Source: Candidatus Uhrbacteria bacterium (GTDB lineage: Bacteria > Patescibacteriota > Patescibacteriia > UBA9934 > GWF2-40-263). From it: a DNA stretch of 23,367 nt. Under the pieces are notes generated by a model. The model was not told where the DNA came from. It did no database searches and saw only the letters and a list, made by a program, of their open reading frames with translations. Location of the stretch: the NCBI GenBank assembly GCA_903831335.1, contig CAIKXH010000089.1, forward strand, positions 1 to 23,367, given 5' to 3'. The first letter of the stretch is position 1. The number at the start of each line of letters is the position of its first letter. Of this stretch, positions 17,061 through 23,100 are shown in pieces. The position numbers were made by a program, and so were the translations under genes.

Positions 17061-17522
17061 ATGAACAGAAAACAATTTGGGAATAGAAAATCCATTCGGC
17101 TTCCCGATCACGATTATTCATCGTCCTGTTTATATTTTATTACCATCTGTGTTGATTGGTATGTGGAATGTTTGGGTTCGATTCACAATAATGCAATGAA
17201 TTTAAACGAATACGGAAAAATCGTGGAACAACAATGGTTGTGGTTGGCAAAACAATATTCATACATTGAATTGAATGAATATATTGTCATGCCAGATCAT
17301 TTTCATGGGATTGTTATGATCAATGACGAAAACGAACCAACGACCAAAATTAAACCATTGTCAGAAATAATTGGTGCATTCAAGACAACATCATCAAAAT
17401 TGATTCATCAAGCAGGATTAACAGATTTTAAATGGCAACGTTCGTTCCATGAACGCATCATCCATAATTTGTTTCAATTGGATAACATACAAACATACAT
17501 CAAAAACAACCCAACAAAATGA
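17061..17522 (+). CDS. REP-associated tyrosine (Y1, IS200-like) transposase
   Basis: 153 residues. The HUH metal site is HFH at 80-82 in YIVMPDHFHGIVM, and the catalytic tyrosine is Tyr146 in IQTYIKNNP. The N-terminus RKSIRLPDHDYSSSCLYFITIC is typical of REP-associated transposases (RAYT), which nick single-stranded DNA at imperfect palindromes. The stop falls directly after NNPTK. Related proteins usually continue with Trp and a short tail, and the TGA here is one base from TGG, so the end may be slightly truncated. A perfect 28-bp palindrome lies 33 bp downstream. Expression is probably low, given the terminator just before the start and no SD site. Confidence 0.9.
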   Translation: MNRKQFGNRKSIRLPDHDYSSSCLYFITICVDWYVECLGSIHNNAMNLNEYGKIVEQQWLWLAKQYSYIELNEYIVMPDHFHGIVMINDENEPTTKIKPLSEIIGAFKTTSSKLIHQAGLTDFKWQRSFHERIIHNLFQLDNIQTYIKNNPTK

Positions 17523-17554: not shown

Positions 17555-17582
17555 GCAGGGGATGGTCGCGACCATCCCCTGC
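17555..17582. repeat. Perfect 28-bp REP-like palindrome beside the transposase
   Basis: GCAGGGGATGGTCG (17555-17568) followed by its exact inverse (17569-17582). The copy at 2161-2189 shares the core GGGGATGGTC/GACCATCCCC and a similar pyrimidine-rich tail (CGTTCTGTTCCGTTC there, CGTTCC...GTTCCGTTCC here) on the same side. The rest of 17523-17710 is low-complexity TTCGCGT/GTTCC sequence with no gene I can support. Confidence 0.85.
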
Positions 17583-19818: not shown

Positions 19819-19862
19819 AGATACTGGTATGTTAGCAGAAAAGACAGAAAGAGGAATCAAAC

Positions 19863-19892
19863 AAAAAACTCGATCCAAAGATCAAGTTTTTT
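19863..19892 (-). terminator. Terminator directly after the stranded tRNA-Arg 3' end
   Basis: A 13-bp stem with one T-G wobble (19880-19892 with 19863-19875) and a 4-nt loop. The distal arm ends in six T residues on the minus strand. It begins 1 nt after the CCA of the tRNA fragment at 19894, as expected for the terminator of a once intact tRNA gene. Confidence 0.85.
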
Positions 19893-19893
19893 G

Positions 19894-19959
19894 TGGTGCG
19901 CCCAGCAGCCCGCCCGACTGAACGTCTATTCATCAGTCGTTCGGGCGAGGATTTGAACC
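19894..19959 (-). pseudogene. 3' half of a split tRNA-Arg gene, interrupted by a 41-bp palindrome
   Basis: On the minus strand: the T-loop piece GGTTCAAATC (19950-19959), then a 41-bp insert (19909-19949), then CTGCTGGGCGCACCA down to 19894. Without the insert this equals the T-arm and acceptor end of the complete tRNA-Arg at 20213-20289, including CCA. The rest of the tRNA is missing here and is replaced by the GIY-YIG reading frame. Confidence 0.8.
19909..19949 (-). repeat. 41-bp imperfect palindrome (copy A) inside tRNA 3' fragment
   Basis: Outer stem CCCGCCC/GGGCGAG, a 4-nt GTTC bulge on one side, inner stem GACTGA/TCAGTC, loop of 11 nt. It lies exactly between CAGCAG and GATTTGAAC of the tRNA sequence. 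It also supplies the last seven codons and the TAG stop of the GIY-YIG gene. Confidence 0.8.
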
Positions 19960-20204
19960 CCGCCTCTCAACACAAAATGATCTTTCAAGAATCGTCTTCC
20001 TGATGCAGTCTTTAAATACAATTCAAAAGCGCGCGCATGTTCAAACATTTCAAATTCTTTTATAAAAACAACGCGTAGATTTTTCATCGAACGCGTTGTT
20101 TGGGTGTGACCCCTTTTATGCTCCTTTAATCGACGATCAAAATCTTTCGTCATTCCTTTATAACGTCGACCTGACTCATCCTCAATAACGTAAACTGTAT
20201 ACAT
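19926..20204 (-). CDS. Small GIY-YIG endonuclease
   Basis: 92 residues, a single GIY-YIG domain. The motif appears as VYVI (4-7) and YKG (15-17, where YIG is usual), then Arg24/Arg25 in FDRRLKEH and the catalytic Glu61 in AFELYLKT. The C-terminus is unusual: GVQI (82-85) is translated from a tRNA T-loop fragment and LARTTDE with its TAG stop from the 41-bp palindrome, so the native end seems to have been replaced. The start lies 8 nt after the CCA end of the complete tRNA-Arg, with no terminator between, so tRNA and mRNA are probably made together. Related small GIY-YIG proteins are often labelled UvrC-like or UPF0213. Here the position suggests an endonuclease mobile with a tRNA target. Confidence 0.88.
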   Translation of the reverse strand: MYTVYVIEDESGRRYKGMTKDFDRRLKEHKRGHTQTTRSMKNLRVVFIKEFEMFEHARAFELYLKTASGRRFLKDHFVLRGGVQILARTTDE

Positions 20205-20212
20205 AATTGAAG

Positions 20213-20289
20213 TGGTGCGCCCAGCAGGATTTGAACCTACGACCCTCAGCTCCGCAAGCTGATGCTCTATCCAGCTGAGCTATGAGCGC
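20213..20289 (-). tRNA. tRNA-Arg(GCG), complete with CCA
   Basis: 77 nt. The acceptor GCGCTCA/TGGGCGC pairs with one T-G wobble. D-arm GCTC/GAGC with A20, an arginine identity base, in the D-loop. Anticodon stem TCAGC/GCTGA with loop TTGCGGA, anticodon GCG. T-arm GTAGG/CCTGC with TTCAAAT loop. Discriminator A and encoded CCA. It should read CGC and CGU. No terminator follows directly. Confidence 0.93.
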
Positions 20290-20333
20290 ATAAAAATTCT
20301 GGATTTCTTTGATTGTGACAGTCTAAACTTTTT

Positions 20334-20429
20334 GATTTGAACCTACGACCTCTCGGGCTGATGCTCCCCGCCCGAACGACCGAATGACTTATGTTCGGTC
20401 GGGCGGGTATCCAGCTGAGCTATGAGCGC
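20334..20429 (-). pseudogene. 5' part of a split tRNA-Arg gene, interrupted by a 41-bp palindrome
   Basis: On the minus strand, 20429-20408 equals the first 22 nt of the complete tRNA-Arg. A 41-bp insert follows (20407-20367), then GAGCATCAGC, a shortened and altered anticodon arm (about 7 nt missing), and GGTCGTAGGTTCAAATC ending at 20334. The similarity stops at the same T-loop position where the 3' fragment at 19950 begins. Confidence 0.8.
20367..20407 (-). repeat. 41-bp imperfect palindrome (copy B) inside tRNA 5' fragment
   Basis: On the minus strand: outer stem CCCGCCC/GGGCGGG, inner stem GACCGAA/TTCGGTC, loop CATAAGTCA, and a GTTC bulge on the same side as copy A. It is the same length as copy A and inserted cleanly between GGATA and GAGC of the D-arm. 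Confidence 0.8.
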
Positions 20430-22899: not shown

Positions 22900-22994
22900 G
22901 GAGAGATACCCAAGAGGCTGAAGGGGGGAGATTGCTAATCTCCTAGGTCGGCTTTAAACCCGGCGCGAGGGTTCAAATCCCTCTCTCTCCGCCA
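22900..22994 (+). tRNA. tRNA-Ser(GCT)
   Basis: 95 nt including CCA. Acceptor GGAGAGA/TCTCTCC, anticodon stem GGAGA/TCTCC with loop TTGCTAA (anticodon GCT), a long variable arm as in class II tRNAs, T-arm GAGGG/CCCTC with TTCAAAT, discriminator G. It reads AGC and AGU. Confidence 0.95.
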
Positions 22995-23011
22995 GAATAC
23001 TTACAACTTAT

Positions 23012-23100
23012 GGAGAGGTGGCCGAGTGGTTGATGGCACCAGTCTTGAAAACTGTCGAAGTTAATAGCTTCCGCGAGTTCGAATCTCGCCCTCTCCGCCA
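23012..23100 (+). tRNA. tRNA-Ser(TGA)
   Basis: 89 nt including CCA. Acceptor GGAGAGG/CCTCTCC, anticodon loop CTTGAAA (anticodon TGA), long variable arm GAAG...CTTC, T-arm GCGAG/CTCGC with TTCGAAT, discriminator G. It reads UCA and related serine codons. It begins 17 nt after the first tRNA, and a terminator follows 3 nt after CCA. Confidence 0.95.

Follow-up and report, generated by a model that had tools for sequence, protein, structure and literature searches.

The locus described here raises the question of how a tRNA-Arg gene came to lie in two pieces on either side of a second, complete tRNA-Arg gene and a small GIY-YIG gene. It was found in a 23,367-nucleotide contig of a Candidatus Uhrbacteria bacterium, analysed over its whole length and referred to here as the window. 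On the minus strand, an upstream ORF is followed by the 5′ piece of tRNA-Arg, 44 bp, a complete tRNA-Arg(GCG), 8 bp, the GIY-YIG gene, the 3′ piece, a terminator and recG (named by reading of the ORF). An insert made up of the complete tRNA-Arg and a 92-codon GIY-YIG gene interrupts the native tRNA-Arg(GCG) gene. This order and its coordinates, proposed in a first-pass annotation, were recovered with ARAGORN, Rfam, PF01541 and the repeats of the locus (Table 1). Exact repeats of 24, 17 and 16 nt exclude chance as the origin of the tRNA pieces. We consider it probable that a minimal free-standing GIY-YIG homing unit entered the host tRNA-Arg gene and left a complete copy behind.

Table 1. Features of the interrupted tRNA-Arg locus, in minus-strand order, and the tRNA-Ser pair of the window.
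Feature	Position	Strand	Remark
Upstream ORF	20989-20462	-	First in minus-strand order of the locus
Native tRNA-Arg 5′ piece, nt 1-22	20408..20429	-	Exact repeat of complete tRNA
Hairpin H1, 41-nt palindrome, between tRNA nt 22 and 23 (D-loop edge)	20367..20407	-	
Rest of the 5′ piece: nt 23-32, 6 foreign nt and nt 46-62, with T-loop GGTTCAAATC at its end	20334..20366	-	
Spacer of insert, 44 bp	20290..20333	-	
Complete tRNA-Arg(GCG)	20213..20289	-	ARAGORN; Rfam 67 bits
GIY-YIG gene, 92 codons	19926..20204	-	PF01541, E 2.9e-12
Doubled T-loop 10-mer GGTTCAAATC, tRNA nt 53-62, right edge	19950..19959	-	
Hairpin H2, 41-nt palindrome in inverted orientation to H1, placed between tRNA nt 62 and 63	19909..19949	-	
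Native tRNA-Arg 3′ piece, nt 63-77 with CCA	19894..19908	-	
Native terminator (inverted repeat and T run)	19861..19894	-	Conserved in G001, G002, G004
tRNA-Ser(gct) and tRNA-Ser(tga), 17 bp apart	22900..23100	+	

The outer tRNA-Arg pieces span 20429-20334 and 19959-19894, and 374 bp (20333-19960) lie between their T-loop edges, each of which carries the 10-mer. The first-pass annotation was right about these edges, but the pieces are not the clean halves that it described: they are interrupted by H1, six foreign nucleotides, a gap of nucleotides 33-45 and H2, and the anticodon arm is partly lost from the 5′ piece. The two palindromes, one in each outer piece, had been missed. They are inverted relative to one another (77% complementary over 43 nt), with fold energies of −22.7 kcal/mol for H1 and −19.4 kcal/mol for H2, which the script read as a 39-nt insert (z of −4.6 for each, mononucleotide shuffles). 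The last codons of the GIY-YIG gene, described as tRNA-derived, are so only in part, as the tail of the ORF runs through the T-loop piece into H2, which supplies the final stretch and the stop codon. Likewise, a 10-mer is indeed doubled as in the proposed target duplication, but tens of tRNA nucleotides are doubled at other loci; recombination or repair thus fits better than a transposase footprint.

In the insert, the GIY-YIG gene is the sole ORF listed, with no other of at least 70 aa on either strand and no integrase among ORFs of that size, and no Rfam intron was found in the window. Genomic islands with tRNA attachment sites also insert at a tRNA gene and retain a complete copy; the present insert differs in having one ORF and no integrase. 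Elsewhere in the window (17061-17522), a gene resembling a REP-associated tyrosine transposase (RAYT; PF01797 above cut-off, NF047646 below its cut-off) lies beside a perfect 14-bp inverted repeat (17555-17582). An origin of the insert as a RAYT/REP product was considered and dropped. This repeat differs from H1 and H2, and the ends of H1 have no second exact match in the genome itself (G000), a draft metagenome-assembled genome (MAG) of 176 contigs that is 81% complete.

The upstream ORF is present in all five genomes of the genus that were compared. The first-pass annotation had proposed looking for an uninterrupted tRNA-Arg in relatives, and three congeners (G001, G002, G003) provide it: one intact tRNA-Arg follows the upstream ORF, identical base for base to the complete tRNA-Arg of the window, with no GIY-YIG gene and no tRNA pieces seen at the locus. 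In G004, the same place holds a tRNA-Arg, a different GIY-YIG gene and then tRNA nucleotides 41-77. The gene is therefore present at the locus in two of the five species, as two unlike genes, and absent from three. The G004 protein shares 61% identity with that of L017 (G011, beside tRNA-Ala) and 35% with that of the window, so two unlike genes entered one tRNA gene within one genus. The complete tRNA of G004 differs from that of the window by two bases, which form the pair 7:66 (G7:C66), and its 3′ remnant retains the genus type U66.

The flanks outside both tRNA pieces align with those of the congeners, upstream at 76.7-80.9% and downstream over 49-209 bp at 74-92% in G001, G002 and G004 and over shorter stretches in G003; recG lies on the other side in G001, so that only the upstream flank and the terminator match there. 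Judged from these alignments, the sequence outside the two tRNA pieces is native. The gene-free sites are not pristine. An ORF-less stretch of ∼125 bp with 19-bp inverted-repeat ends lies upstream of the tRNA-Arg in G001 (L127), where 147 bp separate it from the upstream ORF, and another of ∼125 bp with 18-bp inverted-repeat ends lies between tRNA-Arg and terminator in G003 (L126); both count against a simple insertion picture. G002 has 137 bp upstream of its tRNA-Arg without a strong inverted repeat. The tRNA-Ser pair of the window is also found in G001 and G004 with a GIY-YIG gene between its members (L013, L015), a candidate orthologous place. A second unit in the window's own genome, at tRNA-Glu (L004), consists of a 5′ half with a double hairpin, a GIY-YIG gene, a complete tRNA-Glu and a 3′ part in which this hairpin recurs at the identical position.

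The association with tRNA genes extends well beyond the genus. We collected 78 GIY-YIG places, seven family matches from the window's own genome and 71 from a protein search of 38 relatives; two of the relatives' places, both tRNA-linked, are within the 78 but outside the piece, hairpin and tree counts below. A same-strand tRNA lies within 230 bp at 54 of the 78 (ARAGORN without introns), the farthest among 52 of these being at 223 bp. In the control, comprising 30 of 71 Y1-transposase places from the same 39 genomes, none was within 230 bp of a tRNA and one was at 263 bp. The 24 places that are not linked are heterogeneous, and the non-linked GIY-YIG types were separated by eye; their profile scores overlap. 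One lies by a tmRNA (L048). Three (L051, L055, L056) adjoin a tRNA, called Thr by ARAGORN and read by eye as Asn, whose anticodon loop holds a group I intron; the intron does not enclose the ORF. L009 adjoins a partial tRNA match with masked bases. Ten (L001, L002, L003, L006, L007, L066, L069, L070, L073, L077) are other GIY-YIG types by reading, UvrC included; none of their loci contains a tRNA, and four of the ten lie close to a contig end. A contig end cuts three more (L029, L033, L041), L053 has masked bases and a tRNA at 707 bp, and L046 has a tRNA at 364 bp. The remaining four (L036, L045, L047, L071) fall in none of these groups.

Profile matches occur in 141 of 192 genomes of the window's phylum, taken to be Patescibacteria, up to 17 per genome, with GIY-YIG types that are not tRNA-linked included. 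Among 28 loci from the best-scoring of these 141 genomes, 19 have a same-strand tRNA within ∼280 bp, four a tmRNA (L171, L176, L177, L180) and five neither. Among the best 80 of 499 confirmed loci in named genomes, 76 have a same-strand tRNA within 330 bp (22 of 23 Patescibacteria-type and 54 of 57 others), which is not an unbiased rate because these are the top loci and were drawn with a tRNA-Glu type profile. The 57 others are mostly from Bacteroidota, but also from Omnitrophota, Ignavibacteria, Planctomycetes and more, three being without a phylum; many hosts are MAGs, in which binning errors can mix phyla. Six of the seven NZ_ records within the best 80 are linked, and the seventh (L324) runs to the contig end. 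Five of the 80 repeat loci of the relatives' search and were removed for the tree and the deduplicated counts. The tRNA-adjacent layout thus recurs across several bacterial phyla. The small GIY-YIG genes beside tRNAs for which the first-pass annotation had proposed a search therefore exist, tightly linked and with cognate tRNA pieces on the far side.

These pieces were counted at 147 tRNA-linked loci, 100 with the tRNA downstream of the gene and 47 with it upstream. A cognate 5′ piece, defined as an exact copy of at least 10 nt that begins at tRNA nucleotide 1-8, is found upstream of the gene at 78 of the 100 tRNA-downstream loci (74 of 95 without the five duplicates), compared to a mean of 2.55 per 100 with non-cognate tRNAs. 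A 3′ piece (ending within 4 nt of the tRNA 3′ end) is found at 10 of the 47 tRNA-upstream loci (control 0.1); the other 37 have no 3′ piece of at least 10 nt, which counts against the homing reading. The counted pieces are exact copies interrupted at few places, not copies with changes scattered through them. A piece of nucleotides 1-22 upstream of the gene is seen in isolate records such as L263, L267, L306 and L311. Units are carried by isolates of Arenibacter, Winogradskyella and Maribacter, among others (L306, L263 and L289). The stop codon of the GIY-YIG ORF lies inside the tRNA at 49 of 95 loci (duplicates removed).

The edge of the unit can be approached in G081, in which two paralogous units (324 of 414 bp identical) directly follow tRNA-Ala and tmRNA. 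Their near-identical run begins at TCCACCA, the end shared by the two RNAs, which places the left edge at, or no more than 7 bases inside, the RNA end. At upstream-tRNA loci (L010, L013, L014, L021, L027, L028, L040 and the G081 Ala/tmRNA pair), CCA is followed at once, or nearly so, by the start of a stem and then by a TG(C/T)C...AGC...GCGA... hairpin. Stem and hairpin are possibly a conserved leader RNA of the unit. An HDV-like ribozyme in this CCA-to-ORF leader was considered and dropped, as no HDV-type Rfam match was obtained at E up to 2 for 20 upstream-tRNA loci.

Hairpins inside tRNA pieces are widespread: 44 inserts at 39 loci were read by script, with a mean length of 31 nt and 69% GC; 37 of the 44 have a z below −1.5 (mononucleotide shuffles), and 24 of the 44 follow tRNA nucleotide 21-24. 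The palindrome CCTGCCTGCCGGCAGGCAGG occurs in pieces from the window's order (L011), Bacteroidota (L313, L314, L322) and Omnitrophota (L271), and the window shares with Aequorivita (L267) and Arenibacter (L311) H1-like palindromes at nucleotide 22|23 of tRNA-Arg. Genomes hold between 0 and 17 matches to the CCGGC palindrome family, perfect palindromes being counted on both strands, and the 20-mer palindrome is present at 0 to 13 places per genome, its only copy in G024 and in G038 sitting in a GIY-linked tRNA piece (L012 and L011, respectively). Some palindromes lie inside ORFs. The idea that the CCGGC hairpin family is bound to GIY-YIG genes only was dropped, since it also occurs in ORFs and in tRNA pieces without such a gene. 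The CCGGC double hairpin is read in frame within long ORFs (L082, L096, L100 and others), amidase-like and DnaJ-like ones among them (names by reading).

Some GIY-YIG genes lie at other structured elements. Two in G081 are found at the RNase P RNA gene (196476), between inverted-repeat arms read as the P3 stem, and in an inverted repeat just before tsaD (412424). These two and four others (L160, L165, L178, L186) make up the six, among 11 genes away from tRNA and tmRNA, that have arms at both ORF ends, equalled by at most 1 of 110 mismatched pairs. The arms of L174 are weaker (5 of 110), and none were found at L036, L045, L047 and L071 (32-63 of 110). What the insertions have in common may be a site in a loop of structured RNA; the GIY-YIG ORFs reported at stem-loops of CPR rRNA insertions (PMC11270868) agree with this.

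The window protein contains Tyr5, Tyr15, Gly17, Arg25, His29 and Glu61, so the catalytic residues of GIY-YIG enzymes are present in an intact ORF; Arg25, His29 and Glu61 are invariant in all 140 proteins of the tree. The domain profile search recognised no DNA-binding domain. The nearest solved sequences are the single-domain UPF0213 proteins 1zg2 and 1ywl (E 3.4e-6 and 0.022). In the 39 genomes, nine further small GIY-YIG genes, which by reading of their sequences belong to other types, lack a tRNA in the locus. On the tree, tRNA isotype changes 52 times, compared to a mean of 98.7 (87-106) in 500 shuffles and to 84-99 when shuffled within phylum group and side. The same holds outside Patescibacteria (14 changes against 25-30 shuffled, 53 proteins) and within Patescibacteria alone (39 against 54-66, 87 proteins). 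Thus, the nuclease lineage tracks tRNA isotype across hosts. The tRNA-Glu group of the tree mixes members from Patescibacteria and Bacteroidota; L282 and L287, both from MAGs, share 75% identity over 80 residues. A phage source was dropped, as none of 53 viral-contig stretches that matched a pattern was confirmed; this search, like that which gave weak matches in 11 phage and 11 plasmid records, used one tRNA-Glu type query.

Together with the gene-free congeners, the tRNA linkage supports the first-pass suggestion of a small mobile unit that targets a tRNA gene; how it would cut and move we infer. The nuclease would cut the cognate tRNA gene in a stretch coding for the D, anticodon or T loop, and the break would be repaired from a copy carrying the unit. 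The insert would bring along sufficient tRNA sequence for one complete tRNA gene to survive, so the unit would cost the host no tRNA, and it may spread horizontally. In the 5′ layout, the unit stands before the complete tRNA, with a 5′ piece upstream; in the 3′ layout, that of the window and G004, it stands after the complete tRNA, with a 3′ piece downstream. GC-rich hairpins are found in or near the loops of the left-over pieces. Several observations count against homing. Hairpins interrupt the tRNA pieces, but the complete tRNA is the same as in the gene-free congeners, so nothing obvious protects it from cutting. Since no DNA-binding domain is recognised, the choice of isotype is left without explanation. 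The 24 non-linked places also weigh against it, as do tRNA pieces without a GIY-YIG gene, seen at tRNA-Glu in L079/L091 and, as pieces of at least 13 nt with no such gene within 700 bp, at six tRNAs, five of them in G081 and the other in G024 contig 1.

Such gene-free pieces would be expected if the tRNA had first been duplicated in tandem, the GIY-YIG gene being a passenger or by-product and the redundant copies decaying. This account is unlikely: each of the three gene-free congeners has a lone tRNA-Arg without any visible piece, the counted pieces are exact copies interrupted at few places, and a passenger would not follow the tRNA isotype over phyla.

An amplifying nuclease has a precedent in SegB, a GIY-YIG homing endonuclease of phages T4 and T6. 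According to the sections of PMC13096335 available to us, SegB cuts inside tRNA genes, with the motif RAWTSGAAC at 23 of 83 cut sites and no favoured isotype seen by the authors, and yields tRNA+segB repeats; microhomology between segB and tRNA-Tyr is also reported there. The complement of the motif appears to read like a T loop. Like the present genes, segB (L332) is a free-standing GIY-YIG gene that lies among tRNA genes and shares their strand. It differs in being phage-borne, whereas the window unit is chromosomal, and in the length of its product (221 aa compared to 92 aa); NUMOD3 matches SegB only at E 0.14 and the window protein not at all. No homology beyond the GIY-YIG motif was detected by BLASTP (E 21), hhalign (probability 2.4% over 19 columns) or domain profiles, and hairpin-bearing tRNA pieces do not feature in those sections of PMC13096335. 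SegB is, by analogy, the nearest working precedent, without close homology.

By the same analogy, the nuclease might multiply the tRNA gene for its host, for example as dosage against tRNA-cleaving toxins, and not spread itself. Repeated tRNA pieces at L259, L294 and L313 are consistent with such amplification, as are the ORF ends inside the tRNA, which recall the segB/tRNA-Tyr microhomology reported in that part of PMC13096335. We regard it as improbable, because inspection of loci by eye showed extra copies that were truncated or interrupted, so that working tRNA dosage is not raised there. A host-domesticated factor, co-transcribed with the tRNA and acting in its processing or control, would account for the nearest tRNA being on the gene's strand in every linked case listed, and the stop codons inside tRNAs imply that tRNA 5′ processing would cut the message. 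It is nevertheless highly improbable given the patchy presence between congeners, the many isotypes and subfamilies, and the occurrence of such genes at RNase P RNA or within plain inverted repeats. An assembly artefact, conceivable from the window contig alone in so fragmented a MAG, can hardly be the explanation, as the same anatomy in other genomes, the isolate records mentioned above included, makes a mis-join unlikely.

The homing unit proposed here also has a counterpart in CPR bacteria, for which PMC11270868 describes sparse GIY-YIG genes in rRNA insertion sequences, placed by its authors outside spread by homing. These are alike in being ORFs outside introns at stem-loops of structured RNA genes in Patescibacteria, and unlike in having an rRNA host, the word tRNA not being found in the main text of that paper. 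Among the matches listed from the open-licence literature, with subscription papers outside coverage, no title reports chromosomal tRNA-linked GIY-YIG units. The present genes look like a little-noticed class of minimal mobile genes living on tRNA genes. If so, many unexamined small “GIY-YIG nuclease family” genes would be explained as parasites of tRNA or other structured RNA genes, and the units would rank among the smallest mobile units known, spread over several phyla and leaving a complete tRNA. They would also offer a set of candidate tRNA-gene-specific nucleases, and they pose the sharp question of what lets a single small domain distinguish between tRNA isotypes, and for what reason palindromes sit in the left-over tRNA pieces.

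Short GC-rich hairpins in RNA genes are known from the hairpin elements of mitochondrial genomes; here, the hairpins differ in lying in broken tRNA copies beside a nuclease gene. It is a distinctly doubtful idea that the broken, hairpin-bearing copy is a working part of the unit. The tRNA fragment, transcribed just before the ORF, could be the guide to its own target in RNA-guided GIY-YIG homing, with the palindrome as protein-binding scaffold; in a weaker form, the palindromes could be a second mobile element moved by the nuclease into the loops that it cuts. Either, if true, would explain the isotype fidelity of a nuclease of ∼80 residues without a recognised DNA-binding domain, as well as exact tRNA pieces that bear similar palindromes at one tRNA position in both Patescibacteria and Bacteroidota.

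Two minor observations concern tRNA genes in G081 and G024. At tRNA-Gly(ccc), Asp and Tyr of G081 and tRNA-Gln of G024 contig 1, 3′ pieces lie 234-265 bp from the start of the complete tRNA, the nearest 700 bp being free of GIY-YIG genes, and are perhaps non-autonomous insertions. G081 also contains a structured-looking repeat of ∼170 nt, GGGGACCCCGAAATGGTCTAG...GAGGAACGA...TTTTGGGG..., copies of which in L233 and L238 did not themselves match any Rfam family at E up to 0.5. The repeat is often found between or before tRNA genes, with copies near 127497, 272040, 331064, 341402, 341743, 430754, 431480 and 641667.
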